Shown here: piece by piece, positions 3,001 through 48,689 of the stretch
Numbering within the stretch: the first letter of the stretch is position 1
Layout: the number at the start of each line of letters is the position of its first letter
NCBI GenBank assembly: GCA_009797885.1
Contig: WNKP01000001.1
Location: 806,001-870,000, forward strand
DNA length: 64,000 bases
Direction of reading: 5' to 3'
DNA from: Flavobacteriaceae bacterium GF1
GTDB lineage: Bacteria; Bacteroidota; Bacteroidia; Flavobacteriales; Flavobacteriaceae
Made by a program: the position numbers and the translations under genes
Notes under the pieces: model-generated
Seen by the model: only the letters and a program-made list of their open reading frames with translations
What the model was told of the DNA's origin: nothing
Database searches by the model: none

Positions 3001-6000
3001 TGGAGCTGACCCTAACAGAACCCAAATCGCTCTCACAGCCATTGGCATCAATAATACGTATGTAATAATCACCAAAATCAAGATTATTAAAAGTATGGGT
3101 AGTGCTTGCCGAAACAACAGTGCCGATAACAGTATTGGAACTGTCGTAAAGTGTATAGGTAAAGTTGGGTACACCCCCTTGCGTAATGGTAACATCAATA
3201 CTGCCCGGCACCGTAGCCCCTGTACCAAGATTACAGGTTACATCGGTGGCCACCATATTGGATAACAATTGTAAGGGCTCGCCCACTACGGCGTTATCCG
3301 TGAATTCACAGCCCCTACTATCACGTACAGTAAATGGATAGGTGCCTGCACCGAGCGCGGAATAGGTCCTAGTGGCCGTAAATGCACTTCCATCAAAACT
3401 CACGGTATACGGGGCCACGCCAAAGTTTTCATCGATATCGATAACTACGGAACCATCGGCATATCCAAAGCATGCGGCATTGGTCACTATTGTTGTGGCC
3501 TGGGGATTCACGGTAGGGCTAACGATTATTTCATTGGTCTCAACAGTACAACCGTTGTTGTCCGTGATTTGGAACTGGTAGGTTCCCGCTGCTGCTGCTC
3601 CCGAATAGGTAAAAGCGTTTCCGGCTATTGCGGTGGTCGCGCCGTAACCACCACCATTTACCTGTACCTGATAGGTTGCATAAGGCGTATACCCACCGCT
3701 TATGGTGACATCAATCACAGCATTTGCCGTACAGAACAGGTCCTGCGTAAGGACGGCATTGGCAGTAAGTTGAGGTTCAATGGTTTGTGTAATGCTATTG
3801 GACACACAACCGTAGGCGTCCGTCACTTGTATATTGTAGGTGCCCGGTGTTAGATTGCTTATGGTGAAAGGGTTCCCACCAGCTGCTATCAGTCCACCAC
3901 CATTTATGGTGTAGGAATAAGGGGCCACGCCATCGGTGACGCTCACTTCCAGGGAAGCCTGATTCGTACTATCATAACACAGGTCCGAAGGATTAAATGC
4001 GATTACGGGCGTCTCCGCGGGGTCTATGGTAATCGGCCGTGTATGCACACATCCACGGGCGTCCCTCACATAGATGGTATAGGTCCCGGGCGCTACATCG
4101 GCAAAGGAGTTTCCGCTTTGGTACGCATATATGACCGTTGGCCCTGTGGTGTCTTCCAATTGGTATTCATAACCGCCCCATCCGCCTGTAGCGCTAACGG
4201 TTATGGTCGCATCGGAGATACAGGTGTCGTCCGTATTGGAAAAAGCAAAATCAAGGGCCAATGCAGGCTCTGCAATGGTCTGGTTGAGCGTAACGGTACA
4301 ATTGGTGATATCGTCGGTAATGGTTATCACATAGGTATCGGCCCCAAGCCCGGATACGGATATTGGGGTAATCGTGTTTATAGTATTGGCAGACTGAACG
4401 GTGCCACCAAGTCCATCCAACACATCATAGCTATAGGTGGTGTCGAAGTCCGATACCGTAAAATTGAATGCGCCATCCGAACCTCCCACACAGCTGACAT
4501 TGCTGATGAGCTGCGAAACGGCATCCACTTGTGGGATGGGGTTTACCGTATAGTTTTCGGTGATAGCACAGTTCTTGCTGTCCGTTACCCGGAAGGTATA
4601 GGTTCCCGGGGCAAGTCCGGTGAAGATGGCGTTGTTGCCATTGTTGGTGGCACTTCCCGCTGGGGCGATGATTTCGTATACAAAAGGCGTGTTACCACCA
4701 GTCACGGATACGGTGACGTCGCCCACGATTGTTGGACAGGTCAGTGCCGTTTGGGCAAAGGCCAGATCTGTTGGCGGATTCAATGGTGCTATGGTCTGTG
4801 CACTGGTAGCGGTACAATTGTTGGCGTCCCGTACCGTAATGGTATAGGTTCCGTCAGTAAGCCCGGAAAAGGAGGTTGAAGGGCCAAAGTTGACCCCATC
4901 AATACTGTACATATAGGGAGCGGTACCACCACTTGTGGAGGTTACTTCTATGGTGGCGTCCGCATCGCAGGTATAATCTACGGTAATACTTGTGCCCAGG
5001 CCAAGCACGGCAGGTTCATTTACAGTAACGGTATTTGTGGTCATACAGTTCTTGCTGTCCGTGACGGTATAGGTATAAGTGCCTGCCGCAAGACCGCTAT
5101 AGACCTGCTGTGTTGAGGGCGCACTGCCATCGAAGACAATTGAATAGGGAGCAAGACCACCTGAAATGTTCAGGTCCACGGAACCGTTGGAATCCCCATT
5201 ACAAAGGACGTCCGTGACCAATGGGGCAACCGTGGGGAGTGGATTGTCCGTTACAACAACCTGATTTGTCGTGAAGGTACAAGACTCACTATCGGTAATG
5301 ATAAACGTATAGGTTCCTGGCGTAGTGGTAAAATAACTAAAGGGAATACTCGGAACGGGAGTACTTGCCTGATGCGGCGTGCCATTTAAGAAAACTTCAT
5401 ACGTAAAACCTGGATTTCCTCCTGAAATGGAGAGGGAAATTTCCGCATCAGGGGAAACACTGCAATCCAAATCCTTGACCAAACCCGCACTTGCATTTAA
5501 TGTGGGAAAAACGGTTACACCTGCCGTTGCCGTACAATTTCTACTATCAATGACCTCGACGGTATAACTCCCAGGCCCTAAGCCTGTGAAAACAGGGCTG
5601 GATTGGTATGCCCCACTGCCTAAACGGTATTGGAACGGAGCAACACCTCCCGAGCTAACACTGGCGGTAAGCTCCAAACCAATACTGCTATCATAACAGA
5701 GGCTATTTGCCGTAAGATCGAGTACTGGGGAGACCGTTGGTGTTAAACTGAACGTTTGGGTGACTTCACAGCCACCGGCATCACGAACGGTTACCGTATA
5801 ATTCCCTGAAGTATCGGTAAGGCCGGTAAAGGTATTTGTTCCCTGTGGGCCCGTAACGGCACTTGAGGGATCTTCAATTTCATAGGCATATCCTCCCCAT
5901 CCGCCAGTAGCGGTAATCGTAACCGAACCGGGAACCGTCCCGGAAGACGAACAGGTTAAATCAACGACGTCCAAACTTGATATGACCAAGGCAGACGGAG

Positions 6001-9000
6001 GAGCAGCTACGGTTATAGTGCTTGTATCCGTGCAATTGGTATCATTATCGGTCACCACAATGGTATAATCCCCTGCGATTAAAGTGGTCAAGGGGACTGT
6101 ACTCAAGGTTTCCCCCGTCCCATTAAAGGTCATTGGACCGGTAACCGCATAATCAAAGGAATTGATAAAGTCGGTTACCGTAAAGGTTATGTCCCCATTA
6201 TTGCCTCCCAGGCAATCCACATTGGAATTGAGCTGCCCAACAACGGAAATCTGGTCAACTGGCGAAATGGTAAAGTCTTCCTGTAGGGTACAGCCCTTGG
6301 CATCGGTCACCAAAAAAGTATAGGTACCTGGATCCAATCCTGAAAATACGTTCACATTACCGTTATTGGAGACCGCTGCGGCCGGGGCAATGATTTCATA
6401 TATAAAATTGGGATTTCCATCAACCACGGTAACGGTTACGTCCGATGTTAGTGCCGGACAGGTAAGGGCTGTGGTCGCAAAAGTCAAATCCGTTGGCGGA
6501 TTCAATGAATCTAGGGTAATGGAATTGGTTACAAAAACACAGTTATTGGCATCCCTGATACTTATGGTATAGGTGCCATCCGTAAGATTTTCGAACCTGT
6601 GGGCATTTGGCGTGGTGTCCGGGATAAAATTGACCCCGTCAATACTATATGCATACGGAGCGGTGCCTCCCAACACGTTCTGGGCTTCGATGATTCCATT
6701 CTGCAAACAGGTATAATCCTGAACCAAGGCAAGAGTTCCGGATGGAAGATCAGCTGGACCGCCTATCGCAAATGTTTCCACAAAATCGCAGGAAACAACA
6801 CCTTGGGTTTGGATAATGCGAAGGGAATAATTCCCCTGTCCAAGTCCAGTAAAGTTGCCGGAAGCGTTTGTTGAAGTTGAGGCATCGGGATAGGTGAGCT
6901 CATAAGACAATGAATACCCATTGCTATTGGTCACGTTGATGGATACGGAACCATCGGCGGCACCAAAACAGTTTTCATCGATTACGGTCAAGGGGTCATA
7001 TTCCACAGCAGGGGCAACACCTATGGTTACCACATTGGAAATATGGAAGCATCCATTTCCGTCCACTACCACAAATTCATAATCCCCCTCTTCACCATTG
7101 GTAAAATTAAAAGCACTGGTCACCTGATAATCAGGTCCGGGGATGTTGAGCACCTTGGCAGCGTCATCGGCACCACTGTAACGGTCCACACCATTGTAGC
7201 TCCAAATGGCATAATTGTAATCGGGATTTGGAAACCCCCCAGATCCGGTAACGGTGATTATACCATCCGTACAATCTATATTTTTGGTCAGGACGGCGGT
7301 AAGGTCCAAATCGGTCCGATCCAAAATAGTGACCTGTTCCGAGTAACTACATCCATCATCCGTGGTGACCAAAACATCATATGTCCCATCATTGAGGTTT
7401 TCAAAAGTATAGTTGTTGTCGTTGGAGGGACCAAAGGTGTCAATTGCGGTCCCACCCTGTGAAATCTCATAATAATATTGCGGATTTACATCCAAAACGG
7501 AAATGGCAATTTCCCCCAGACCATTGCAATTGGTATCCGTTGTGGCGATATCCACTGCAAAGTCCCTTCTAAGAATTCCAATATTGTCCAGTATAAACAC
7601 ACAACCATCAACTACGCCTTGCTGCCGCATTTCCACTCGATAGGCCCCATTGTTGGTTATGGTAAAGCTTGGGCCATTATTGTCACTATAGGGGGTTATA
7701 ATGGTGTTATTGGAAGCATTGACCAATTGATATTCATAATCGAGGGGCATATTTGTTACCGTAATGTTCCCTGGGGTGGTACAGACAATATCGGTACTGT
7801 TGAACTGTGGATCCAAAGGATTTTTGAACACATTGAAATAAAACCGGGTGAAACAACCATTTTGATAGTTGATGACCAAACGATATTGACCTGCATCCGA
7901 AGCCAGGAAATCACTGCCACTACCCACACTGTTCCATGTACATCCATTGTTGGTGTTGGCACAGTTCGGTGTAGCCGCCGCGCAACTGGTCTCATCCAAT
8001 TGTTCCCAGACAATACTGTCCGCATCCGGAATGTTGATTTGAATCAGCTCCGAATCGTTCAATCCACAAAGGAAGATTTCGGGTAATTCCTCACCATCAT
8101 TGGGGCAAACGAGAACGTTACCCTCAACGGTATTACTGGTGTCATTGATCAGGGCGGTTATTGGATTGGATTGTGTAGCCCCGAAGAATTCCACAATTAT
8201 AATTTCCTGGAAGCCTTTACAGGGGTCGGCCACCTGTTTGTCCACAATATAGGTTCCGGTACTGGAAACCAGGAGGGTACTTGGGTCATTGTCGGAATCA
8301 CCATCGGTGATAATGGTATCCCCTGCATCAATCAGGCGGTCCCCATTTTCATCGATATACCAGATATAGGCATCAAAATTGTCTCCTGCATCCAGCAATA
8401 CATTTTCCCCGCAAAGTTGAACCGTACGGGCGTAATCACAGTTTTCCAGGTCATCCAAAAGAAAGTTAGTGGCCCCAGGGGTAACAAAACCACAATCATC
8501 AAAATCGGACACACTGGGATCATCGGAAATTTGGTTGTCGTTGATGAGGCCCTGATAGGTTGAGAAGGCTACATTTTCAATTTGATCGGTACAGGCATCA
8601 ACAAAGTCAAAGCAGTTTTCTGCTACTTGGACGTTGATTCGAATTTCGGTTATCGGATCTCCTTCTTCCACCAGGCGTTCGGGAATGTCAAAAACGAGTT
8701 CCCTGGTTGTGGAATCATAGGTATAGGTGATATCCGTGTTTGCCCCAAGGTCCACGCCTAAAAAGGAAGTATTTACAGGGAGTACGTCCCTAATGGTATA
8801 ATTGACGGCATCGTCGTTCCCCGTATTGACAAAAGAGAGCACATAATCCAAATATTGCCCCAGGTTTACACCAGCCCCCGTAATATCGTTACCGCCAATA
8901 TCCTCCACTTTTTTTTCGAGAATGATATTGGGCTCAATAATTTCCACCCCAAAGGTTACAAGAAAGGCACCAAAGGCATCTCCTTGGGTAAACAACCTTA

Positions 9001-10069
9001 AGGTAGCATCGGTTTCTTCGTTGGCAATAATACTATTTGCAGGGTTGTTGATTTCAAAGATATCGGAGTCAAAACCCAGGGTATTGGTACTGGCGATATT
9101 TCGAGTAGTTACATCGGCGCCATCTATGGTAATATTGGAATTGAAAAAGTTATTTGAGGGGTTTGAGGTATTGGAAAGACTGGTAAACCCAGGATTTAAA
9201 GGGGTTTCAATCCGGAAAGCATCGCCGGTGATGCTTCTATCCCCTTCTACCACACTGGCACCCAGCCGTGCACGTACAGGCCCAACAGGGATGGTATTAA
9301 AGCCGGCAACTGTGATATCTGCACTGGAGCTTCCCCTAACACCGGCATAGCCGTCAAATACGGAGATGTATTTTCCAGTAAGTGTTGGATTTTCATAAAT
9401 GATGACCAGGGTCCAACCACCGGCCCCACCAACACTTCTTCCCCGTGTGGCCCTTACGTTTCCAACAAAATATTCGCCGTTGGGGTCCGCCAGGGATTGT
9501 AACAAGCCGGTAACATTTCGGTAACAGGTATATGGGGAGTCTTTAAAATTGACATCATCATGGATTATTTCGTCTTCCTCCCCCACTGGGTCGGGATTAT
9601 TGTCCGCCGTTATATCAATATAGCTTCCCCCGGGCATCCGAAATTTGATGGTCGTAAAATCCAGGCGTTGGGTATCATTTTGTGGAAGCCCTGAAATCTG
9701 TGTGTTGTTTAAAACCTCCTGTTGGTAGTTTGCGGACCAGTACAAGCCTGCGTAGTAGATTCTGGAACAGAAGGGAAGGCTGAGCGTGGAACTGCTCGAG
9801 CTAAAAGTAGTTGGGTCTCCATCGATATCAATATAATCCCGGTGAAAACCATTGTTATTGGATCCACCGTTATAGGGGTCGTTGGCCGAGTTACTCGAAT
9901 CGACCCTATTCAAAATACCATTTGATAGAAATGTGTAGTCCCCCTTTATGTTAACATAGGAATTGTCCAATCTCGGGGTAAAGGGCACCTCTACTTGTGC
10001 CCAACCCGTGACGAACAAGAGGAGGGTAGTAAAGAGCGCTAATGCGCCCTTGACGTCTATGGTTTTCAT
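1..10069 (-). CDS. Giant SprB-like cell-surface adhesin, C-terminus beyond the window
   Basis: The minus frame is open from an ATG at 10069 to the window edge, giving at least 3,356 residues without a stop. Residues 1 to about 25 form a signal peptide ending GWAQ. A unique N-terminal part follows, with a DUF11-like domain (motif YVLSFVNTGNDDA) at about residues 385-475. From about residue 700 onward the protein is a long series of Cys-containing beta-rich repeats of about 83 residues, each with a DANGC-like end. These resemble the repeats of SprB, the mobile gliding adhesin of Flavobacterium johnsoniae. Its ATG directly follows the TAA of the upstream PorP/SprF gene, so translation is probably coupled. 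Export through the type IX secretion system is inferred. The expected C-terminal sorting domain lies outside the window. Family assignment is firm, a gliding role is not. Confidence 0.9.
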   Translation of the reverse strand, partial: MKTIDVKGALALFTTLLLFVTGWAQVEVPFTPRLDNSYVNIKGDYTFLSNGILNRVDSSNSANDPYNGGSNNNGFHRDYIDIDGDPTTFSSSSSTLSLPFCSRIYYAGLYWSANYQQEVLNNTQISGLPQNDTQRLDFTTIKFRMPGGSYIDITADNNPDPVGEEDEIIHDDVNFKDSPYTCYRNVTGLLQSLADPNGEYFVGNVRATRGRSVGGAGGWTLVIIYENPTLTGKYISVFDGYAGVRGSSSADITVAGFNTIPVGPVRARLGASVVEGDRSITGDAFRIETPLNPGFTSLSNTSNPSNNFFNSNITIDGADVTTRNIASTNTLGFDSDIFEINNPANSIIANEETDATLRLFTQGDAFGAFLVTFGVEIIEPNIILEKKVEDIGGNDITGAGVNLGQYLDYVLSFVNTGNDDAVNYTIRDVLPVNTSFLGVDLGANTDITYTYDSTTRELVFDIPERLVEEGDPITEIRINVQVAENCFDFVDACTDQIENVAFSTYQGLINDNQISDDPSVSDFDDCGFVTPGATNFLLDDLENCDYARTVQLCGENVLLDAGDNFDAYIWYIDENGDRLIDAGDTIITDGDSDNDPSTLLVSSTGTYIVDKQVADPCKGFQEIIIVEFFGATQSNPITALINDTSNTVEGNVLVCPNDGEELPEIFLCGLNDSELIQINIPDADSIVWEQLDETSCAAATPNCANTNNGCTWNSVGSGSDFLASDAGQYRLVINYQNGCFTRFYFNVFKNPLDPQFNSTDIVCTTPGNITVTNMPLDYEYQLVNASNNTIITPYSDNNGPSFTITNNGAYRVEMRQQGVVDGCVFILDNIGILRRDFAVDIATTDTNCNGLGEIAISVLDVNPQYYYEISQGGTAIDTFGPSNDNNYTFENLNDGTYDVLVTTDDGCSYSEQVTILDRTDLDLTAVLTKNIDCTDGIITVTGSGGFPNPDYNYAIWSYNGVDRYSGADDAAKVLNIPGPDYQVTSAFNFTNGEEGDYEFVVVDGNGCFHISNVVTIGVAPAVEYDPLTVIDENCFGAADGSVSINVTNSNGYSLSYELTYPDASTSTNASGNFTGLGQGNYSLRIIQTQGVVSCDFVETFAIGGPADLPSGTLALVQDYTCLQNGIIEAQNVLGGTAPYAYSIDGVNFIPDTTPNAHRFENLTDGTYTISIRDANNCVFVTNSITLDSLNPPTDLTFATTALTCPALTSDVTVTVVDGNPNFIYEIIAPAAAVSNNGNVNVFSGLDPGTYTFLVTDAKGCTLQEDFTISPVDQISVVGQLNSNVDCLGGNNGDITFTVTDFINSFDYAVTGPMTFNGTGETLSTVPLTTLIAGDYTIVVTDNDTNCTDTSTITVAAPPSALVISSLDVVDLTCSSSGTVPGSVTITATGGWGGYAYEIEDPSSAVTGPQGTNTFTGLTDTSGNYTVTVRDAGGCEVTQTFSLTPTVSPVLDLTANSLCYDSSIGLELTASVSSGGVAPFQYRLGSGAYQSSPVFTGLGPGSYTVEVIDSRNCTATAGVTVFPTLNASAGLVKDLDCSVSPDAEISLSISGGNPGFTYEVFLNGTPHQASTPVPSIPFSYFTTTPGTYTFIITDSESCTFTTNQVVVTDNPLPTVAPLVTDVLCNGDSNGSVDLNISGGLAPYSIVFDGSAPSTQQVYSGLAAGTYTYTVTDSKNCMTTNTVTVNEPAVLGLGTSITVDYTCDADATIEVTSTSGGTAPYMYSIDGVNFGPSTSFSGLTDGTYTITVRDANNCTATSAQTIAPLNPPTDLAFAQTALTCPTIVGDVTVSVTGGNTPFVYEIIAPAGSATNNGNNAIFTGLAPGTYTFRVTDSKNCAITENYTVNPIPQVDAVSQLISNVSCVGGSDGAFNFTVSDFDTTYSYDVLDGLGGTVQSANTINTITPISVSGLGADTYVITITDDITNCTVTLNQTIAEPALALDFAFSNTDDTCISDATITVSATGGWGGYEYQLEDTTGPTVIYAYQSGNSFADVAPGTYTIYVRDARGCVHTRPITIDPAETPVIAFNPSDLCYDSTNQASLEVSVTDGVAPYSYTINGGGLIAAGGNPFTISNLTPGTYNIQVTDAYGCVSNSITQTIEPQLTANAVLTQDLFCTANAVIDVTISGGYTPYATYQVQVNGGGYGATTAIAGNAFTYSGAAAAGTYQFQITDNNGCTVETNEIIVSPTVNPQATTIVTNAACFGYADGSVVIDIDENFGVAPYTVSFDGSAFTATRTYSALGAGTYPFTVRDSRGCEFTDNAVVGEPLQLLSNMVATDVTCNLGTGATVPGSIDVTITQGGVPNFTYTLYDSSNTVIGTVVSASTTHTFNNLDFGDYYIRIIDANGCESDLGSVRVSSNPFLTLTANPTPPDCITGGSVDITASGGSGNYNFEIYNGGPGPTSEITTAPDTEVATFTSLNPGQTYIIRAEDITNGCVSFLEVTIPPVSAISVVVDSTSDITCVGDDDGTMTFTVDNYDASVTTINWEVLNALTNTVVTGPGTYTGSVGPGPAGGPQTATVTQIPPGDYVLVVREATAPSCTATTTFRITEPSPVAVSLLSQLAANCNTDAEVTVRASGGTAGYSYAYVEDGNPAPVVFPEGQTFTLDPSVNLNWDIYARDAAGCVSPPLDVTISVDASPEISSIIANECVTEGNFAINVTLTVAGTAPYRISVDGGAPQATSWTNIGDVVTISNLSSGNHTIQIVDANGCGELENITIFPPLEVIANITADDNCDPANSGEVTITANGGSAAYTFTQTTPAGASNATGVFSGLTHSIAYTFQVADNNTGCIVPVIITLPAPVNPTFTLAKTDVSCFGGNDGTLTATLNPGNIDVPYLYSLDAGTTTQASNVFPGLTQGTYNVTVISTKGCSTTLPITIDEPSQLDITASASVFTCNDAVSTVTVGINNDALGHPSGTAPYQYSFNGGAFGSGNTFTVAYGSPAVVVVVRDDNGCTDTVNVPIPARADVTATITELQDIDCNNGQEIIQIAAANGSGNYSYAQLPSGSPVADPTNIVITAPGTYVYEVTDTTTNCSVIVQHVVDPYDLINAVATVTSDATCSDATDGTIEVTVTGYTGTFDYVVLDNLGNPIVGTNDSNNATTDPYTFTVSTTLGAGTYAVRITETADPLCTTETNAVTIDAPQPLVLTLLDNVNANCNEANSIVTVQGSGGTGPYTYGASQSGTGVPATFAFDSTLELNPLTATAWDIYVRDANGCIINTPLAVTIAADTTPDITLAIVDECAPEGNFAISVVLDAVNTGVGPYTMSLDGAVFQSITSFAHTYANLASGGHTVTIRDANGCGETENITISPQLTLSAMVNTQPSCNTADGIIDFVVAGGSGTNTVQLLRTDLTDTGLV
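160..7640 (-). repeat. Tandem array of about 30 SprB-like repeat units
   Basis: On the plus strand, variants of the reverse complement of a Cys/DANGC-type codon string recur roughly every 240-260 bases. Examples lie near 171, 430, 1215, 1945, 2205, 3035, 3550, 3800, 4050, 4570, 4815, 5045, 5770, 6290, 6545, 7050, 7350 and 7600. I counted about 30 units by eye. The units diverge in DNA sequence but keep the same frame and spacing, which fits a filamentous stalk of repeated beta domains. Two units (near 4570 and 5045) share nearly identical bases around the motif, suggesting more recent duplication. Confidence 0.8.
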
Positions 10070-12268
10070 TTAGCCGGTTTGGTTTGGTTTTATACGCATT
10101 ATCCATATAGGATCATTGTAAGCATTATTTAGTTTGGAGTAGTAGTTGGTCAATGCCGCGGTCCAGTCTTCATGTTTCTTTAAATAGACGTAGCGGTATT
10201 TGTTTTCTGGATTAATAAAATAACTGGCGTTCAGCCCCTTGCTATTGAGTTCTTTTACAAAACGAGTGGCATTGTTGGGATTGGCAAACACGTTGGCGAT
10301 GATATAAAAGCCAGAGCCAACACCATTCATCCTAACTGTTTTTAATGAGGGTTTTCCAGGACGCCCCATGCCATTATTGACGACATTCTTTTGAAGCACA
10401 TTGTTGTCATACCTACTGGTATTTTCTGCCAGTCCGGAGTTATCGATTGTGCCCTGTACCCGCATTACCCAAGTATCCTCATGGTATTGTCCGTTCATAT
10501 TGGACTTATGGGCCGCTATGGCTTCCGATTTGTTGTCAAAGTTTTTGAGGTAGACGTAGTTAAGGCCGTTTCTTGGATTTGTAAAATAATCGGCTTCAAT
10601 ACCTTTGGCCTCAAGTTCCTCCATGAAAATGTTCATGTACTTTGTGCCTTTGTACACGTTGGCTATCAAATAATGCCCAGACTCCACATTTGGAATGCTG
10701 AAGTTTTTAAACCTAGATTTCCTAACCGTGGTCTTTGGGGCACTGGTCTTATCCTTTTTAGTGTTTGCCAACGCCACTTTGTCAACCTTTACCTCGGAAG
10801 GTTTGTTCAGGTTTTTAACGTTGCTCATGCGCTTGGCGGTGGAAGTGCTTGTGAACTGTTTGTCCAGGCCGGTTGTGTTTTGGGCAACAGCTTCCGTTTC
10901 ATTCGCATTGGCCGTTCCGCTGGCACTATTATTGTTTTGGTCTTCAAGATTAATGATTCGCTTGGAAGCGGTGGTGTTGGTCAGACCGTGGTTGGAAAGC
11001 GGGGCTTGGGAACGGGCCTGTACAAGTTCATCACTTTCGGCATTCTGAAAGTACAGCTGTTTTGCCTTCTCTTCCAACTCGGGACGATTTCCTTTGGTTT
11101 CCCTACGCACCATTTTCATGACCGTATTGAACCTTCTTTCCAAATCCGACCTGCGGTTCCTTTCAATGGAGTCCTGTCGCAGCAACAGCTCATCCAAAAT
11201 GGCATCGTTTTCAGCAAGCTTTTGTTCCAATTCCGCAATTTTTAAGTCCTTTTCGGTAAGGCTCAATTCCTCCATGGGGACTTCTTCATCCCCATTGCTG
11301 GCTAAGTCTTCGTTGCCCTTTTCTAGCAGCACCCTGTCCTCGGTAAGGTTGGGTACAAAAGAATAGGCCAATGATATTTCGTGGTTTACACCAAAATTTT
11401 CAAAATTGTTGGACAGCCCCTTTTCAACCGTATACCCCAGGGAAAGGCGTTTGTTCAGGTTAAAACCAATCCCTGCCGCTGCACCGTAAATATCGTCATA
11501 ACCCGCTTGCAACCACCCTAGTTTGGGGAGGTCCAGAATAAGGCTTCCACTTAGGGAAATATCCTCACCCTCTACATTTCGCACACGGGCCAAGGGCATT
11601 AACCTACCGCTTTCCAAAATCCCGGAGGCCTTTTTAAACTGATGGGTATATTGCAAATGTCCGGTAAACGTTTTTTGATCGAACGTAGTAATGGATTCAC
11701 TGGTTTTTAGGTTGTAGTCAAACAGATTGTCCGCCAGCACCCCAAAATCGAAATTGCCATAACTGATATTAAAACCGGGCTGAAACGTAATGAGTGCGCT
11801 ATCGTCCAAACTGTCCAATAAGGGATCGTCATCCACCGGATTGGCCCTTCCTTCATTGAACCCACTGTTGTAATAGGAAAAATTGGCCCCAAAGGTAAAG
11901 TTGCTTTTATCGCTCAATTTAACCCCGTAGGCATAGTTGGCCAACAGCCCAAAGTTATCGATCAAGCCTTCGCGCTGCGTGTAAAGGCTAAGCCCTACTC
12001 CACTTCTATCCCCTATCCTACCACTATAGCTTAAAAAATAGGTTTGAAAATTATCATCAAAAGAAACCGATTGGTTTCTATGAAATAAATTGATGTACGA
12101 TTTGTCCTCGCGAACCGTGGAAAAAGTGGGGTTCAATAGGAACCTATTAAATTTCAACAAGTTCTGTGAGGGCACGTCGTAAGCTATAAAGGGGGCTTCC
12201 TCCTGCGCCTTGGTCGTTCCAAAGACAAGAAAAAATAGGATAATGAGTATGGGGCTATACTTTCGCAT
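10070..12268 (-). CDS. PorP/SprF-family outer-membrane protein with coiled coil and two SPOR-like repeats
   Basis: This 732-residue protein starts with a signal peptide (about 1-21, ending TKAQ). Residues about 25-305 form a PorP/SprF-type outer-membrane barrel; PorP/SprF proteins work with the type IX secretion system and help specific adhesins reach the surface. The usual family length is about 300-350 residues, so this one is long. Residues about 330-410 are a charged coiled coil, 410-525 a Thr/Asn/Lys-rich linker, and two similar units follow at about 531-605 and 652-727. Each begins G-x-Y/F-x-I-A-N-V and ends W-x-M-R, like SPOR peptidoglycan-binding domains. The gene sits 7 bases after the upstream gene, and its TAA touches the ATG of the giant adhesin. 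Anchoring to the cell wall is inferred. Confidence 0.85.
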   Translation of the reverse strand: MRKYSPILIILFFLVFGTTKAQEEAPFIAYDVPSQNLLKFNRFLLNPTFSTVREDKSYINLFHRNQSVSFDDNFQTYFLSYSGRIGDRSGVGLSLYTQREGLIDNFGLLANYAYGVKLSDKSNFTFGANFSYYNSGFNEGRANPVDDDPLLDSLDDSALITFQPGFNISYGNFDFGVLADNLFDYNLKTSESITTFDQKTFTGHLQYTHQFKKASGILESGRLMPLARVRNVEGEDISLSGSLILDLPKLGWLQAGYDDIYGAAAGIGFNLNKRLSLGYTVEKGLSNNFENFGVNHEISLAYSFVPNLTEDRVLLEKGNEDLASNGDEEVPMEELSLTEKDLKIAELEQKLAENDAILDELLLRQDSIERNRRSDLERRFNTVMKMVRRETKGNRPELEEKAKQLYFQNAESDELVQARSQAPLSNHGLTNTTASKRIINLEDQNNNSASGTANANETEAVAQNTTGLDKQFTSTSTAKRMSNVKNLNKPSEVKVDKVALANTKKDKTSAPKTTVRKSRFKNFSIPNVESGHYLIANVYKGTKYMNIFMEELEAKGIEADYFTNPRNGLNYVYLKNFDNKSEAIAAHKSNMNGQYHEDTWVMRVQGTIDNSGLAENTSRYDNNVLQKNVVNNGMGRPGKPSLKTVRMNGVGSGFYIIANVFANPNNATRFVKELNSKGLNASYFINPENKYRYVYLKKHEDWTAALTNYYSKLNNAYNDPIWIMRIKPNQTG

Positions 12269-24600: not shown

Positions 24601-25160
24601 ATGAGGGCAAACAGGGAGAAGGTGAGTCCGAAGGGGAGGAACAAATAGGAAAGCAAGGAAGGGAAAATGAAGGCAAAGGAAAGGGGAATGGTTATGGAGA
24701 ATCCGATGGTTCAGGAAACAACGGGTTGTCAGAGGAACAGCTAAAGGAAATCTATGAAATTTACCAAGAGCAGCAAACCATTCGGCGAACGCTGGAGGAA
24801 CAATTGCAAAATATTATTGATGGGGACAAAAGGGACCTGGCAAAGAAACTGACGATTCAAATGGAACAGTTTGAGGATGCCTTGTTGGAAAATGGGATTA
24901 CGGAGCGGACATTGAATCGAATGAACCAGATCCAACATCAGTTGTTGAAATTGGAGAATGCGGCCTTAAAACAGGGAGAGAAAAAGGAACGTGAAAGTAA
25001 TACCAACAAAAAGGATTACAGCACACCCATTTTGACGAAGCCAGAGTTGTTATCACCAAGAAACAATGAAATTGAGATTTTAAACCGACAAGCATTACCT
25101 TTGCGGCCTGATTTTCAGAATAAAGTGAAGGAATACTTTGGCAATGGCAATCCTTTATAA
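21681..25160 (+). CDS. DUF4175-family membrane protein, long Gln/Glu-rich coiled coil, TTG start
   Basis: This 1,159-residue protein has two N-terminal membrane segments (about 25-75) and a third near 150-172. A beta-rich extracytoplasmic part follows to about 480. A very long Glu/Gln/Lys coiled coil spans about 490-820, and a Gly/Glu/Gln low-complexity tract lies at about 912-1015 before a conserved C-terminal segment. The layout fits the DUF4175 family of Bacteroidota, whose function is unknown. An in-frame TGA lies at 21675-21677 and the next in-frame ATG is more than 200 codons in, beyond the membrane segments. The start is therefore TTG at 21681, giving MNSFQHVIAKLEAF. Its end overlaps ybeY by 17 bases. 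Confidence 0.85.
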   Translation: MNSFQHVIAKLEAFSKRYYSKVLVKGILLFLTFGLLLFLLVTATEYLFWLSTTTRLVLFFGFLAILVGLGYQYVLVPILYLVKLKKGITEREASRLIGRHFPKVGDKLLNLLELSENSAKTDLLLAAIEQRSVELKPLPFGDAVNFREGFRYGRYLVIPILILGLVWVSGSIADFFNSYNRVVNYDVAYEPPAPFQFILRNGDLTVLEDTPLKIEVGTHGEVVPEAVFMEVGGERMLMQATGKGTHEFTLEPPLTNFTFRFSANEVDSRDYTVMVTKVPAIADFRVKVNYPNYLGLAEKEIRGTGNMTIPEGSRISWYLEGLNTTTIEFITKDTTESFDRTENEFLFSKRVFNTMDYELSTSNQEVSHYERLGYRLNVLKDAAPRIKVEQLLDSLRPNEIYFSGGASDDNMVDRIHLVYYEAGKPNEENRIELLRPNTNVAQFYYTFPSGIAIEEGKVYELYFEAVDNDGLRGGKRVKSQVFKTALLNDKELKDRDLENQESLIKGLDKSLEQLEEQSGVLMEMNLQQKQKDNLEYKERERIRQFLNKQQQQEELMEKFSRELRENLGKEEKDSEMNQLLQERLERQELEAKKNQKLLEELDRVADKIEKEELKKRLEDLAKSQSSGKRNLEQLLELTKRYYVTEKAAQLGEKLNELSEKQQTLSERKLEEGLSKKEQQKLNEAFEEISKELDELKGDNRALKKPMDLDFNKNQQESIKKDQREALEEINKQQGEENSGLSEEEKEQIQNKASQRQKSAAEKMKELSEKLQESMSGAAGGSSVVEDAEMLRQILDNLVTFSFKQENLLDKVNGSDVEIGEFSTTVRKQKELRQLFEHVDDSLFALSLRRAELSEFVNEQITEVYYNVDKTLESVAENQIYQAASYQQYVLNASNSLADFLADILDNMQQSMMSGQGQGQGEGFQLPDIIKSQGELQEKMNGSQGSEKGEQNGEGNEGEQSGEGQKEGSSKEGGNEGKQGEGESEGEEQIGKQGRENEGKGKGNGYGESDGSGNNGLSEEQLKEIYEIYQEQQTIRRTLEEQLQNIIDGDKRDLAKKLTIQMEQFEDALLENGITERTLNRMNQIQHQLLKLENAALKQGEKKERESNTNKKDYSTPILTKPELLSPRNNEIEILNRQALPLRPDFQNKVKEYFGNGNPL

Positions 25161-25566
25161 TTACGAGACGGATTTTAGACGGCTGTCAGAACTCGATTAT
25201 TCCGATTGGGTAAGTAGGATAGTGTCCTCCGAGGGATATAACGTGGGAGAGTTGTCCTTTATTTTTTGCGAGGACAATTATTTACATAAGATGAACAGAA
25301 CCTATTTAAATCACGACACCCTAACGGATATTATCACTTTTGATTATTCGACGGGGAAGACGATTTCCGGGGATGTGTTCATATCCATTGAACGGGTATG
25401 TGATAACGCCAAACGTTTTGGCGTTGAAGAGGAAGAAGAATTGCAACGGGTAATGGCGCATGGTGTATTACACCTGTTGGGCTACAATGATAAAACCGAG
25501 GAAGAGTCGGTGGTCATGCGCGCAAAGGAAAATGAAAAAATGAAATTGTTCCACGTGGAACATTAA
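25144..25566 (+). CDS. ybeY: Endoribonuclease YbeY (rRNA maturation factor)
   Basis: This 140-residue metal-dependent endoribonuclease acts in 16S rRNA 3'-end maturation and ribosome quality control. The metal site appears as HGVLHLLGYNDKTEEE near residues 105-120. The third ligand His of the usual GYDH is replaced by Asp-Lys, a form I recall from Bacteroidota. A TTG lies two codons upstream, but the ATG at 25144 is the natural start. It overlaps the DUF4175 gene by 17 bases and precedes mnmG by 3, so all three are probably co-transcribed. Its last codons (LFHVEH) are encoded by a parS-like site. Confidence 0.93.
   Translation: MAILYNYETDFRRLSELDYSDWVSRIVSSEGYNVGELSFIFCEDNYLHKMNRTYLNHDTLTDIITFDYSTGKTISGDVFISIERVCDNAKRFGVEEEEELQRVMAHGVLHLLGYNDKTEEESVVMRAKENEKMKLFHVEH
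25547..25562. other. parS: parS centromere-like site 1
   Basis: TGTTCCACGTGGAACA is a perfect 16-base palindrome, identical to the pseudomonad ParB-binding site parS and two bases (C/T and G/A) from the Bacillus form. It sits in the last codons of ybeY, 7 bases before mnmG. ParB binding is inferred from the sequence. Confidence 0.8.
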
Positions 25567-25569
25567 GGT

Positions 25570-27438
25570 ATGTTTGAAAAGGAATATGATGTAATCGTTG
25601 TTGGAGGTGGCCACGCTGGAGCAGAGGCTGTAGCTGCTGCGGCCAACATGGGTTCTAGGACATTGTTGGTAACGATGAACCTGCAAACCATTGGACAGAT
25701 GTCTTGCAACCCGGCTATGGGAGGTATTGCAAAAGGACAGATTGTACGGGAAATAGATGCTTTGGGCGGCTATAGCGGAATTGTTACGGACAAATCGGCC
25801 ATTCAATTTAAAATGCTCAACAAATCCAAAGGCCCGGCAATGTGGAGTCCTCGGGCCCAGAACGACAGGATGCGCTTTGCGGAAGAATGGCGGTTGGCCC
25901 TTGAACAAACACCCAATGTCGATTTTTATCAGGAGATGGTTTCGGGCTTGTTGGTGGATAATGATAGGGTCGTTGGGGTGAGGACTTCTTTAGGTATCGA
26001 TGTGAGGGGAAAGGCGGTTGTGCTTACCAATGGGACATTTCTGAACGGATTGATTCATATTGGGGAGAAACAATTTGGGGGCGGAAGAGCAGGTGAGAGA
26101 GCGGCAACTGGTATCACGGAGCAATTGGTGGATATCGGGTTCGATAGTGGACGAATGAAAACCGGTACACCGCCAAGGGTCGATGGAAGATCTTTGGACT
26201 ATGACGTTATGATTCCACAACCTGGGGACCAAAACCCGGAAAAGTTCTCCTACTTGAATACACCTTTATTGGACAAACAGCGTGATTGCCATATGACGCA
26301 CACCAGCACCTTGGTGCATGATTTGCTTAGGGAAGGATTTGACCGCTCACCAATGTTCAATGGACGGATTAAAAGCATTGGACCAAGATATTGCCCGTCT
26401 ATAGAGGATAAAATACACCGTTTTTCAGACAAGGATTCACATCAGATTTTTGTGGAACCTGAGGGATGGAATACGGTTGAGGTTTATGTAAATGGATTTT
26501 CAACCTCCCTGCCGGAAGATGTGCAGTATAGGGCACTGCGTTCCGTAAAAGGTTTTGAGAGTGTAAAGTTTTTTAGACCGGGCTACGCAATCGAATATGA
26601 TTACTTTCCGCCGACACAGTTAAAACACACCTTGGAAACGAAGTTGATCAAAAATCTGTATTTCGCAGGGCAGATTAATGGTACTACCGGCTATGAGGAA
26701 GCGGCGTCGCAAGGCTTGATGGCTGGAATAAATGCCCATTTGCAAATCAATGAAAAGGAACCCTTTATTTTAAAAAGGGATGAGGCCTATATTGGAGTAT
26801 TAATAGATGATCTGATTACCAAAGGAACTGAGGAACCGTATCGAATGTTCACCTCTCGGGCCGAATATCGTACATTATTGCGACAAGATAATGCGGACAT
26901 TCGGTTAACCCCCAAAGGGTATGCATTGGGTTTGGCAAAGGAGGAGCGGTTATATAGAATGGAGGAAAAAAAGGAAAAGTCAGATGCTTTTGTTTCTTTT
27001 TTCAGGAAAACAAGTTTTTCTCCTGACGAAATCAACCCGATTTTGGAAGAAATAGGAACGGCCAAAGTGAAACAATCCGACAAAATGTTCAAAGTGTTTT
27101 CCAGGCCAAAAGTAACCATGGACCATATGATGCAGTTGGATTCGGTCATGGAATATGTTAGCAGCAATAGTCTGGATACTGAAGTAATGGAACAGGCAGA
27201 AATTCAGGTGAAGTATTCGGGATACATTGAAAAGGAAAAAAACAATGCGGACAAATTGCAGCGCCTGGAAAATATTAAAATCCCGCAGGGCTTCGATTAT
27301 TCAAGATTAAAGTCGCTTTCTTCCGAGGCGAGGGAAAAATTACAGGAAATACAACCCGTTACAATTTCACAAGCTTCTAGAATTAGCGGCGTGTCCCCAT
27401 CGGACATTAGTGTGCTTTTGGTGTTTTTGGGAAGATAG
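25570..27438 (+). CDS. mnmG: tRNA uridine-5-carboxymethylaminomethyl modification enzyme MnmG (GidA)
   Basis: The 622-residue FAD enzyme works with MnmE to install carboxymethylaminomethyl groups on U34 of certain tRNAs. The N-terminal dinucleotide-binding motif GGGHAGAEA is at residues 12-20. The family signatures [16 protein letters not shown] and [11 protein letters not shown] and the FAD-binding [16 protein letters not shown] are all present. The length is normal. It directly follows ybeY, and perfect or near-perfect parS sites lie at both ends. In many bacteria mnmG lies near the replication origin and parAB, but neither parA nor parB is in this window. Confidence 0.97.
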
Positions 27439-27445
27439 GGCAGAT

Positions 27446-27461
27446 CGTTCCACGTGGAACA
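27446..27461. other. parS: parS centromere-like site 2
   Basis: CGTTCCACGTGGAACA contains the perfect 14-base core GTTCCACGTGGAAC at 27447-27460 and differs from site 1 only at its first base. It lies 7 bases beyond the mnmG stop, in non-coding sequence, so it is not explained by codon constraint. Confidence 0.78.
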
Positions 27462-30071: not shown

Positions 30072-31220
30072 TTAAGAAGCCTTTACATGTAAAAGGCGGG
30101 TTAATTTAATGGATAAATCCGTAAAAATAAGCCTGGAATTTCCATTGCGTTCCACATGGAGCATTGCCGATTCCAACTCTCCAAAAATCGCTTGGATATT
30201 GTTTTCATGAATGAATGGAGCAAATTTTTTCAGCTCAAAATTGTCCATATGCATTTTGGAATAGACCAGTTCAGGGGCATTATAATTCAATAATAGTGCC
30301 TGTCTAATAATGGAAATACAATATTTTAAGAACTTCTTCTGAACTTCACGACCTACTTTGGCAAGCTCTTCGCTCCATAGGATCAAATCGCGAATGGCCG
30401 CTTTGTTGCCTTTGGCCTTGAATGCACTCCGAACCCACTGCACAAACCATTTTTCAAAGATCAAGTCCTCAGAATCCTGGTTCATCAGGTCCAGGGCCTT
30501 ATTAAAGTTTCCATTGGCTTCGTGAGCCAATTGCTTTGCCTGGTCCCGATCCAAGCCTTTTTCCACCAAACCCTCCGCAATAATAGCTTCCGGCAATGGG
30601 GGAAAATGAAGGACCTGACAGCGGGATTTAATGGTGCTGATCAATTGTTCCTCTTCTTCGACCAGCAACAGGATTACCGTCTGTTTCGGGGGCTCTTCAA
30701 TTAGTTTTAGAAGTTTGTTGGAGGCGGCAACATTCATTTTTTCGGCCATCCAAACAATTAGGATTTTGTAACCGCCCTCATAAGATTTTAAAGAGAGTTT
30801 CTTGACAATGTCCTGCGCTTCGTCCACCCCAATCTGCCCCTGCTTTTTTTCAATCCCCACAAATCGGTACCAATCAAAGAGGTTTCCATAAGGCTGTTCC
30901 GATAAAAACTGCCGCCATTCCTGCAGGTAATTGTCACTGACGGCGTGACTTTTTATCTTGTCGGAATTGGAAACCGGAAACGCAAAATGAATGTCCGGAT
31001 GTGTAAAGGTGGTACATTTATGCAAACAACTATTATAGGCGTCGGAGTCCTTTGGATGGGACTTACTTATAACATATTGGGCATAGGCCAATGCTATGGG
31101 CAGGGATCCGCAGCCTTCCGGACCCACAAAAAGTTGGGCGTGCGGAATTCGCCCCCTATCGGCAGAGGTGATCAGATGACTTTTTAGGTGTTTTTGGCCT
31201 AAGGCATTTTTAAAAAGCAT
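30072..31220 (-). CDS. holB: DNA polymerase III delta' subunit
   Basis: This 382-residue protein belongs to the AAA+ clamp-loader family. The Walker A region is degenerate (GPEGCGSL at residues 33-40), with the usual Lys and Thr/Ser replaced by Ser and Leu. That fits delta', which does not hydrolyse ATP. Downstream come KILIVWMAEKMN (Walker B-like), KLIEEPP and the sensor-type STIKSRCQ motif, all diagnostic of the family. The zinc-finger Cys set is reduced to CLHKC. It opens the sliding clamp together with delta and the DnaX subunits. The start has a consensus -7 element 5 bases upstream. Confidence 0.92.
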   Translation of the reverse strand: MLFKNALGQKHLKSHLITSADRGRIPHAQLFVGPEGCGSLPIALAYAQYVISKSHPKDSDAYNSCLHKCTTFTHPDIHFAFPVSNSDKIKSHAVSDNYLQEWRQFLSEQPYGNLFDWYRFVGIEKKQGQIGVDEAQDIVKKLSLKSYEGGYKILIVWMAEKMNVAASNKLLKLIEEPPKQTVILLLVEEEEQLISTIKSRCQVLHFPPLPEAIIAEGLVEKGLDRDQAKQLAHEANGNFNKALDLMNQDSEDLIFEKWFVQWVRSAFKAKGNKAAIRDLILWSEELAKVGREVQKKFLKYCISIIRQALLLNYNAPELVYSKMHMDNFELKKFAPFIHENNIQAIFGELESAMLHVERNGNSRLIFTDLSIKLTRLLHVKAS

Positions 31221-32652: not shown

Positions 32653-34266
32653 ATGAACGTAAGATTTTTTGCCCTATTTCTGATATGTGCATTTCTTGGC
32701 CCACATGCACTAAGTGCCCAAGAAGAAAAAAAGGATAGTCTGAACATAGCGGTTGATTCCTTGAGCAGGGATCAGCCCATTCTACTGCAAACCCAGGATA
32801 ACACTATTCAAGATGCTTCCCTACAGGTTCCAGTGGCAAAAACGGAAACCGAACAAGCTTCGCTCGAGGATATGGAGCAAGCGTACACTTATGACAGCCT
32901 TTGGTTAAGGGAACTGGCAAAACACGAGGACTATTTTAAGGAAATGTACGCCCAGGTTACCCGAATGGATGTGGACACCACGGAATACCTGGAGCTCCCT
33001 ACGGATACCTTAAAGGCTCGCTTACAACGGCTGGATGAAAAAACACCGTTCAACATTGCTTACAACCCTTCCTTGGAGCGGGTGATAAAAACCTTTTTGA
33101 CCAAAAAAAGGGGATTAATGCAACGCATGTTAACGGCAAGCCAATTTTATTTCCCGTTGTTTGAACAAGAGTTGGACAATCAAAATATTCCTTTGGAAGT
33201 TAAATATTTGGCTATTGTGGAGTCTGCACTCAATCCCAGGGCAAAGTCCAGGGTGGGTGCTACAGGCCTTTGGCAATTTATGTTTTCCACGGGAAAGATA
33301 TACGGATTGGATGTTAGTAGTTATGTGGATGAACGTAGTGATCCCATTGCATCAACCAAAGCAGCGGGCAAATACCTGGCCAAATTATACGATATATTCA
33401 ACGATTGGGATTTGGCCTTAGCGGCCTACAACTCCGGCCCTGGAAATGTCAATAAGGCCATCCGTCGTTCTGGAGGATATAAAAACTATTGGAACATCCG
33501 TAGAAACCTTCCACGTGAAACAGCAGGTTACGTACCGGCTTTTTTGGCGGCCATGTATCTTTTTGAATATGCCGAGGAGCACGGTTTAACGGGTGAAAAG
33601 ATTGAGAGGCCCTATTTTGAGACGGATACCGTTCATATAAAGGAGCTCATTACTTTTGATCAGATTTCGAGCCTCGTTGGGATTTCCAAAGAAGAACTTG
33701 AAGTACTGAACCCACAATACAAACTGAATATTATCCCTAAAGTGAAGGGAAAGACCTATACGTTACGCCTTCCGGTGAAACATATGGGTAAATTCGTATC
33801 CAATGAGCAGGCCATCTACGCCTATGCGAAGACTGAGCTGGACAAACAGGAAAAACCCCTTCCGCGCCTTGTTAATAGTAGTGACCGTATTCGATATAAG
33901 GTAAAAAGTGGGGATTATTTGGGGAAAATTGCCCAACGGTACGGTGTTGGTATAAGTCAGATCAAACGATGGAACGGATTACGGAGCAATAACCTCCGTA
34001 TTGGACAGCGTTTGACCATTTATCCAAGAAAACCCGTGACCACAGCACAATCTAAAGCGGTGGCCACTAATCAACCCAAACCCAAACCAATTGCTCTTCC
34101 CAATGACCCTTCCAAGGTGCACGAAGTGCAATCGGGGGACTCCCTCTGGACCATTTCCAGAAAATATCCAGGAATTAGTATTGAAAATTTACGAGAATGG
34201 AACGGTATTCGCGGTAACAATTTGAAACCGGGAACAAAGTTGAGACTGTGCAATTGTTCTTCGTAA
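32653..34266 (+). CDS. LysM-containing lytic transglycosylase (MltD-like)
   Basis: The 537-residue product has a signal peptide (MNVRFFALFLICAFLG...LSAQ). An SLT catalytic domain lies at about 165-310, with the catalytic Glu in VESALNPRAKSRVGATGLWQFM and the AAYNSGPGNV and LPRETAGYVP motifs. Two LysM domains occupy the C-terminus, YKVKSGDYLGKIAQRYG and HEVQSGDSLWTISRKY. It cleaves peptidoglycan to anhydromuropeptides in the periplasm. The frame extends upstream to a TTG at 32581, but the ATG at 32653 gives a clean signal peptide. DUF4837 follows 9 bases later. Confidence 0.92.
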   Translation: MNVRFFALFLICAFLGPHALSAQEEKKDSLNIAVDSLSRDQPILLQTQDNTIQDASLQVPVAKTETEQASLEDMEQAYTYDSLWLRELAKHEDYFKEMYAQVTRMDVDTTEYLELPTDTLKARLQRLDEKTPFNIAYNPSLERVIKTFLTKKRGLMQRMLTASQFYFPLFEQELDNQNIPLEVKYLAIVESALNPRAKSRVGATGLWQFMFSTGKIYGLDVSSYVDERSDPIASTKAAGKYLAKLYDIFNDWDLALAAYNSGPGNVNKAIRRSGGYKNYWNIRRNLPRETAGYVPAFLAAMYLFEYAEEHGLTGEKIERPYFETDTVHIKELITFDQISSLVGISKEELEVLNPQYKLNIIPKVKGKTYTLRLPVKHMGKFVSNEQAIYAYAKTELDKQEKPLPRLVNSSDRIRYKVKSGDYLGKIAQRYGVGISQIKRWNGLRSNNLRIGQRLTIYPRKPVTTAQSKAVATNQPKPKPIALPNDPSKVHEVQSGDSLWTISRKYPGISIENLREWNGIRGNNLKPGTKLRLCNCSS

Positions 34267-47309: not shown

Positions 47310-48689
47310 ATGATATCAAAGGTTTCAGCGGACAGTCTAATGGATACAGTGGTCAAGAGGGGCTATTGCTCAGGATGTGGTGTTTGTACAGCTTCTAAAG
47401 GAAGTGTTCTTAAAATGAAACTTACCGCCAAGGGTAATTATGAGCCCCATAAGAGTTCTCTTGCCAGCTCGGACTCTGGAGTGGTTTGTCCTTTTGCCGA
47501 TCATGGAGTCAATGAGGATAGTATATCTGAAACCTTGTTTTCCAATATAGATAGAATTAAAAAAAAGAAAGAAGTTGGTCATTATAGAAATATCTATGCA
47601 GGATTTGTAGGGGAAGGGGAATATAGGAAAAATGGAAGTTCAGGAGGTGGGGTTTCTTGGTTATGTGCACAATTGCTGAATGAAAAGAAGGTAGATTATG
47701 TAATTCATGTAAAGCAATCCAACAGTACGGAGAAAAGAGTTTTTTATGAATACAATATAAGTTCAAATATATCAGAATTAAAAGAAGGCGCTAAATCCAG
47801 ATACTACCCGATCACCTTAGAAAAAACGCTGGAAAAAATAAAGAATTCAAATGGTAAATATGCCATAGTTGGTGTTCCTTGTTTTATCAAGGGGATACAA
47901 CTCTTACGATTTTCGGAAGAGGTTTTTATGAAAAGAATAGTCCATACAATTTCGATTTTTTGTGGGCATCTTAAGACCACACATTATATGGATGTGCTCA
48001 TTAATCAATTTGATGTGCCCCAAAAGGAGGTGGCTAAGTTTGATTTCAGACATAAAATACCAAATAGGTTAGCCTCAGATTATGGCACTTCAATCTTAAC
48101 AAACCAGAAAAAGAAAAAAGTAAAAGTCAACAAGACCCTTTTTGGCACCAACTGGGGTTTGAATTTGTTTAAGTTAAAGGCATGTGACTATTGTGACGAT
48201 GTAATTGGGGAAACAGCGGACATTTCTTTTGGAGATGCTTGGCTACCACAATATTTGGAAGATTCTATGGGGACCAATGTTATTGTGGTAAGGAACAAAT
48301 ATCTAGATGAAATTATTAAAAAGGGCATTGAAGAACAAAAGCTTTCAATGGAACCCCTTTCAACAGAGGACCTAATTAAAAGTCAAGCAGGAGGATTTAG
48401 ACATAGAAGGGAAGGTTTAAAGCACAGACTCTTTCTTAAGGATAGCAATAATGAATGGAGGCCTCAAAAAAGATATAAGGCTGAGAAGCTTAAAAACGAA
48501 AAAAGAGCGCGCATCTATGAGAATAGAATCAGAATGCAAGAGGTTTCATTTAATTCAAGGAACCATAATAATTTGAGTGCGCTAATGAGAGAGCTACAGC
48601 CATTTATTAAGGTTAATTCTAGATTAAACAAGGTAAGTTTAGCAAAAAGAATTTGGAATAAAATCAAAAGAACGATAAATCAAGGATAA
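47310..48689 (+). CDS. FrhB-like (coenzyme F420 hydrogenase beta-subunit family) protein of a polysaccharide cluster
   Basis: The 459-residue protein begins with a ferredoxin-like Cys cluster (YCSGCGVC). The FrhB domain follows (NGSSGGGVSWLCAQLL, VGVPCFIKGIQLL, IFCGHLKT). A second Cys group, CDYCDD, sits before ISFGDAWLP, and the C-terminus is basic and helical. FrhB-type proteins are frequent in exopolysaccharide loci beside pyruvyl transferases, where their redox role is unsettled. The pyruvyl transferase gene lies two genes downstream, matching that pattern. It probably binds an iron-sulfur cluster and flavin. Confidence 0.85.
   Translation: MISKVSADSLMDTVVKRGYCSGCGVCTASKGSVLKMKLTAKGNYEPHKSSLASSDSGVVCPFADHGVNEDSISETLFSNIDRIKKKKEVGHYRNIYAGFVGEGEYRKNGSSGGGVSWLCAQLLNEKKVDYVIHVKQSNSTEKRVFYEYNISSNISELKEGAKSRYYPITLEKTLEKIKNSNGKYAIVGVPCFIKGIQLLRFSEEVFMKRIVHTISIFCGHLKTTHYMDVLINQFDVPQKEVAKFDFRHKIPNRLASDYGTSILTNQKKKKVKVNKTLFGTNWGLNLFKLKACDYCDDVIGETADISFGDAWLPQYLEDSMGTNVIVVRNKYLDEIIKKGIEEQKLSMEPLSTEDLIKSQAGGFRHRREGLKHRLFLKDSNNEWRPQKRYKAEKLKNEKRARIYENRIRMQEVSFNSRNHNNLSALMRELQPFIKVNSRLNKVSLAKRIWNKIKRTINQG

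Follow-up and report, generated by a model that had tools for sequence, protein, structure and literature searches.

The two palindromes that lie at either end of mnmG in the DNA analysed here (the window, a stretch of 64,000 nucleotides from a Flavobacteriaceae genome) are, judging from their sequence, almost certainly chromosomal parS-type sites, an observation that is very firm but ordinary in kind. An element of a known kind stands in a strikingly fixed position. What is unusual is that parS and mnmG are paired recurrently across the phylum, that dnaA stands apart from the origin region in this family and that no canonical Smc was found in this genome. We propose with high confidence that the palindromes form a chromosomal parS of Bacteroidota type, that is, a centromere on which ParB would be loaded and which would be copied early owing to its place near a probable origin between the genes rpiB and rnr.

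Two palindromes at the ends of mnmG

In the pattern scan the first palindrome, parS1, showed 0 mismatches to the parS pattern TGTTCCACGTGGAACA, and the second, parS2, differed from it by 1 (Table 1), as had been claimed for these positions in an earlier reading made from the sequence only. The same reading had placed the sites at both ends of mnmG, with the second in non-coding DNA, and this also held: each site lies 7 bases from the gene, parS1 before its ATG and within the last codons of ybeY, and parS2 past its stop codon. The 14-base core of the palindromes, GTTCCACGTGGAAC, occurs in exactly two copies when up to one mismatch is allowed in the 5.28 Mb draft genome (62 contigs), and both of them flank mnmG, 1.9 kb apart, while a reversed control pattern of the core has 0 copies in the whole genome. 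The genome-wide count that the sequence-only reading had proposed as a check hence gave two sites at mnmG rather than sites scattered over the genome.

Table 1. Positions in the window of the parS-type sites, the genes beside them and the weaker matches.
Feature	Position	Strand	Basis
parS1, TGTTCCACGTGGAACA, perfect 16-base palindrome in the 3' end of ybeY	25547..25562		Scan; equivalents beside mnmG in relatives
parS2, CGTTCCACGTGGAACA, 14-base perfect palindrome, non-coding	27446..27461		Scan; equivalents in relatives
mnmG (gidA), between both sites	25570..27438	+	Pfam GIDA, 540.5 bits; TIGR00136 above cut-off
ybeY ORF (endoribonuclease), last codons carrying parS1	25138..25566	+	Pfam YbeY, 99.7 bits
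3-mismatch parS-like match in DNA polymerase III delta-type gene (gene on minus strand), probably not functional	30148..30163	+	Scan
3-mismatch parS-like match in LysM transglycosylase gene, codons for LPRETAGY, probably not functional	33507..33522	+	Scan

A chance origin of the palindromes had been held unlikely from the start, and it was ruled out by shuffling of the window, by the genome count and by the control in the whole family (see below). When up to 3 mismatches are allowed, 4 matches fall in the window where 0.17 would be expected, and 0 of 100 shuffles reach 4; a uniform-base estimate gives about 0.02 exact copies of the core per genome. The weaker matches elsewhere in the genome are mostly noise, because the 16-base pattern with up to 3 mismatches was found in 30 places against 19 for its control. 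The two sites in the window are probably the only good parS sites of the genome.

We also considered additional weak parS sites near mnmG and rejected them. In seven relatives the 300 kb surrounding mnmG contained 7 extra matches with up to 3 mismatches, compared with 5 in 1.9 Mb taken from elsewhere. Four of the 7 fell in the transglycosylase gene, with flanking codons in common, one in the DNA polymerase III delta-type gene, one in a methyltransferase gene and one in no tested gene. They are mostly conserved protein motifs and not independent sites, and because such motifs explain the matches in the transglycosylase and DNA polymerase III delta-type genes, and are also the better explanation for the two 3-mismatch matches of the window, we do not claim the apparent enrichment. 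The parS-like word in the transglycosylase gene, which encodes LPRETAGY in the window, recurs in relatives (L131:13398, L087:18802 and L137:10352), and parS scans that allow loose mismatches will catch it.

The remainder of the window includes part of a 4512-aa ORF (C11:802531-816069; window 1-10069, minus strand) that adjoins a gene for a PorP/SprF type IX secretion protein (10070-12268, minus strand), a layout that we take to suggest a giant secreted adhesin. An AT-rich polysaccharide synthesis cluster (42308-62531, plus strand) comprises an epimerase, glycosyltransferases and a Wzy ligase, with an FrhB/FdhB-like protein within it (47310-48689). Neither ARAGORN nor Rfam at gathering scores found RNA genes in the 64 kb.

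Recurrence of the site beside mnmG

The exact core was present in 124 of the 149 genomes of our family sample (148 genera, the window's genome included), and its control had 0 copies in all 149. Copies per genome numbered two in 83 cases, one in 35, three in 5, five in 1 and none in 25. mnmG was found in 147 of the genomes, and it stood beside the site in 28 of 29 family loci taken from other genomes and in all 4 further family loci. For the genomes without the exact core the flanks of mnmG were read in five of the 25, and in a sixth by coordinates. In all five (G021, G037, G101, G103 and G122) mnmG is flanked on either side by parS variants, for example TGTTTCACGTGGAACA or TGTTCCACGTGAAACA, and variant sites lie on both sides of the gene in the sixth (G131) as well. 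Relatives differ at position 5 and at the position mirroring it, which is where known parS sites vary.

Two members of the family, G107 (single-contig, 99% complete) and G004 (90% complete), have neither a match to mnmG nor the exact parS core. Loss of mnmG and change of parS may go together in these genomes.

Beyond the family, a degenerate core, GTTYCACGTGRAAC, was found in 274 of 296 genomes of the phylum (22 being without it), in a draw that was uneven and favoured some genera, and its reversed control gave at most one match per genome. The adjacency counts were drawn from genomes with a match and so test adjacency and not presence. Among 24 loci from five other families of the class, 18 have mnmG no more than 1.5 kb from the site, and the six misses comprised all 5 loci of one family (f5) and one of the 2 loci of another (f9). 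For the phylum we chose 30 genomes with a match, mostly one per family and six of them from the same class, and obtained 29 loci from 27 families. Judged at the first-listed site of each genome, mnmG was within 1.5 kb in 24 of the 29 loci and not in the other 5. In 12 of the 30 chosen genomes two sites are separated by 1.88-2.02 kb, which is the spacing of an mnmG gene, and in the others the sites are clustered on one side.

In one genus, g112, the sites have become more numerous, and its genomes (for example G361, G345 and G310) have 3-10 parS-type sites each rather than two. G345 carries nine of them within 2.5 kb, beside mnmG (locus L201).

Why the neighbour should be mnmG can be read in more than one way. 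The pairing may be inherited gene order only, the frozen remains of an ancient origin cluster without any special need of mnmG, and we find the case for and against this account evenly balanced. It is compatible with the parS explanation and concerns only the identity of the neighbour. In Firmicutes and many Proteobacteria gidA, gidB, parA, parB and parS cluster at the origin, as this account would have it, and parS is found away from mnmG in the f5 loci, in one of the two f9 loci, in the 5 phylum loci and in one genome of the family, G020, where it lies 4.6 kb from rnr, beside the usual downstream neighbour gene of mnmG, with mnmG itself 285 kb from rnr. Inertia would, however, have to have persisted through many families (27 of them for the 29 phylum loci) while parAB is here on another contig.

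By contrast, it is very improbable that the palindromes are operators or attenuators of ybeY-mnmG expression, bound by ParB or another dimeric regulator and without a role in segregation: although each end of a single gene has one of them at a distance of 7 bases and the proximity of a site to mnmG is repeated across the phylum, their sequence is the ParB consensus and varies where known parS sites do, one copy is downstream of the gene, no T run is found 3' of either palindrome, the sites of G020 remain near rnr with mnmG far off, and some genomes have clusters of sites, such as the nine of G345.

The origin region and the position of dnaA

By GC skew the parS locus is origin-proximal, in agreement with what the sequence-only reading had suggested for the window. 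Third-codon-position skew on contig C11 was negative in 16 of 16 samples from 0-800 kb and positive in the seven window blocks of 814-870 kb, as it was in all 4 samples taken farther along; in the block between (C11:806-814 kb) a long minus-strand ORF gives a skew of +0.306 over window 1-10069. The cumulative raw skew, followed over 234 contiguous kb, reaches its minimum at C11:797,100, 34.4 kb ahead of parS1. This minimum falls in a 587-base intergenic region (C11:796,814-797,400) between the divergent genes rpiB, named from its sequence by eye, and rnr, named by TIGR02063. This region, 8.6-9.2 kb outside the window, is 73% AT. No other 200-base stretches in the scanned 55 kb are as rich in AT as those it contains (76%), and the skew minimum lies inside the richest of them.

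The AT-rich region is conserved in relatives. rpiB was recognisable and divergent to rnr in 18 of 30 rnr loci (our own included), with 572-1200 bases between the genes and an AT content of 68-83%, and the 12 loci in which rpiB was unrecognised upstream or the flank was missing were left out of the intergenic analysis. The 18 regions contain 42 copies of TTATnAACA, with copies in every one, and 11 copies of TTATnCACA in 9 of them, versus means of 4.4 and 1.0 after shuffling in two-base blocks. In density this amounts to 3.12 copies of TTATnAACA and 0.82 of TTATnCACA per kb. Stretches from elsewhere, most of them coding and 1.56 Mb in total, have 0.127 and 0.037 per kb, and the reversed motifs reach at most 0.59 per kb in the rpiB-rnr regions. 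No cluster of classical DnaA boxes (TTATCCACA) was found in these 18 regions, which have a single copy between them. The region of our own genome has only 3 TTATn[A/C]ACA boxes, and there are no TTATnCACA boxes in the 64-kb window. A skew switch, AT-rich non-coding DNA and a conserved position, which are traits of an oriC, are all found at rpiB-rnr, and this intergenic region is most likely oriC, with TTATnAACA as a putative divergent DnaA box and with replication presumably initiating there.

The gene dnaA is elsewhere. In the draft genome it is on contig C54, which, provided that the assembly is correct, puts it some 277 kb or more from the sites. In 27 single-contig genomes of the family (G107, single-contig but with no mnmG match, being left out) the distance between rnr and mnmG was 7-56 kb in 26 and 285 kb in G020, with a median of 18 kb, whereas that between rnr and dnaA was 20-49% of the genome, with a median of 33.5%. 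Lengths were exact for 8 of these genomes (G013, G020, G052, G069, G074, G109, G124 and G148) and rounded to 100 kb for the other 19, except G085 (4.04 Mb). The sequence-only reading had proposed plotting the sites against GC skew and dnaA; the skew half of this plot agrees with an origin-proximal position, but the dnaA half would mislead, because dnaA is far from mnmG in the single-contig genomes of the family.

Skew in the relatives was taken from 20 samples per genome, with the terminus assumed to lie opposite the origin. An origin at rnr fitted more samples than one at dnaA in G124 (18 versus 2), G052 (17 versus 7) and G109 (16 versus 5). The best-fit origin was at 1.97 Mb in G124 (rnr at 2.02), 0.51 Mb in G052 (rnr at 0.39) and 1.46-1.63 Mb in G109 (rnr at 1.65), positions that are only rough since the samples are mostly 130-220 kb apart; in G109 the sign of the skew flips within about 30 kb of rnr. 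The skew of G020 is weak and noisy, with 12 of 20 samples fitting an origin at rnr, 7 of 20 one at dnaA and 15 of 20 the best fit at 1.18-1.24 Mb, which is nearer to mnmG (1.277 Mb) than to parS (0.999 Mb). The case of G020 is thus only suggestive of a parS that keeps to the origin and not to mnmG, and we do not use it as proof because the skew is too noisy and the best fit is elsewhere.

For members of this family, an origin set at dnaA in a genome record or a growth-rate estimate would be misplaced. The pairing of parS with mnmG offers a simple way to locate the segregation locus by sequence, and in this family the origin region too, in genomes where dnaA misleads.

Partner proteins and known systems

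The sequence-only reading supposed that ParB loads here and made this depend on a ParB-family gene in the genome, and such a gene was found. On contig C2 (locus L003) a ParA of 257 aa is directly followed by a ParB of 303 aa in one operon, which, judged by the distances to contig ends and provided that the assembly is correct, lies about 229 kb or more from the parS sites. This ParB has the Pfam domains ParB_N, HTH_ParB and ParB_C, and it matched chains of solved structure from ParB, Spo0J and Noc proteins. Another protein with ParB_N, encoded on contig C8, has no further Pfam domain. According to the available portion of one report, all extant ParB orthologues conserve R173 and G201, and Q173, K179, K184 and R201 mark Noc (PMC7383237). 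At the Caulobacter positions our protein has R173, N178, Y179, K184 and G201 (at GHGR), numbered gap-free along the GKxR motif and not from a residue alignment to Caulobacter ParB, and on these residues it belongs to the parS-binding class rather than to the Noc class.

Under the explanation that we favour, ParB made from the operon on the other contig would load as a clamp at both sites and then spread over and around mnmG, after which ParA would move the newly copied region apart. Loading and spreading of ParB and separation driven by ParA make up the established ParABS pathway. Replication would start in the AT-rich rpiB-rnr region about 34 kb upstream, at TTATnAACA boxes and with dnaA itself away from the origin, and the sites would work because, being near it, they are copied early.

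The sequence-only reading had further suggested that SMC may load at the sites, and for canonical Smc this is unsupported because no protein reached the family cut-off. In a genome rated 99.99% complete the best score for TIGR02168 was 26.9 bits against a cut-off of 567.35. PF02463 (SMC_N), the second of the two models used in our condensin search, gave 18 hits, of which three were above cut-off, in frames of 554, 396 and 234 aa. We take these proteins, by size only, to be RecN-, RecF- and ABC-like, and they are far shorter than Smc. The 396-aa frame, of RecF size, is about 10 kb from parAB (contig C2, 51-64 kb). Loading of Smc-ScpAB condensin at these sites, as in Bacillus and Caulobacter, would be a common role of chromosomal parS (PMC10197239, in the part available, and established knowledge), but with those scores and short frames, and with no known condensin found there in two other Bacteroidetes, we think it highly unlikely here. 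Contacts between chromosome arms are nonetheless reported in one of those two. This raises the question of how ParB and parS segregate and fold the chromosome in a phylum in which the few genomes so examined (this one and the two in the accessible part of PMC10197239) show no canonical Smc.

For Bacteroidota as a whole we put forward, as a reading with about an equal chance of being right or wrong, that a parS set with a fixed place at mnmG serves as the centromere and is what remains of an ancestral origin cluster that dnaA and parAB have left, and that segregation would proceed through ParAB without canonical condensin, beside an origin with divergent TTATnAACA boxes.

Among the titles and abstracts covered we found no report of parS beside mnmG in this phylum; the main parS survey (Livny 2007) was outside this coverage and may contain part of it. 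Origins near mnmG are in print for single strains. In Mariniflexile litorale the predicted origin is near mnmG and agrees with GC skew, and the text has dnaA misfitting the skew, with the labels of the two reversed in a figure legend (PMC11278836), and in an Algorimicrobium strain, also of the Flavobacteriaceae, mnmG is given as the replication origin by Ori-Finder and GC skew (PMC12843772). Both resemble the present case, and the passages available from these papers mention neither parS nor the rpiB-rnr region; here the arrangement was tested over a family and the link to parS over the phylum. The available text of PMC10197239 ties parS clusters to the skew origin, notes that the origin is not always at dnaA and warns about relying on dnaA. 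The clusters of Bacteroides caecimuris and Muribaculum intestinale that it describes are likewise near the skew origin, with no known condensin, and parS beside mnmG is not stated in that text. In a Blattabacterium endosymbiont neither DnaA boxes nor dnaA were found, according to the part available of PMC2768785.

The sites described here share with the chromosomal parS of B. subtilis, C. crescentus and P. aeruginosa the 16-base palindrome type (the consensus is quoted as TGTTTCACGTGAAACA in the portion available of PMC10197239), an origin-proximal position and a ParA-ParB operon. They differ from those of Bacillus subtilis, Caulobacter crescentus and Pseudomonas aeruginosa in that no canonical Smc was found, parAB is on another contig and there are two good sites, one at each end of mnmG. 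Noc binding sites (NBS), as the available extract of PMC7383237 presents them, are also of 16 bases and are bound by a ParB paralogue; in contrast to that system, the ParB of this genome has the R and G residues of the parS type, and its candidate sites are clustered rather than scattered.
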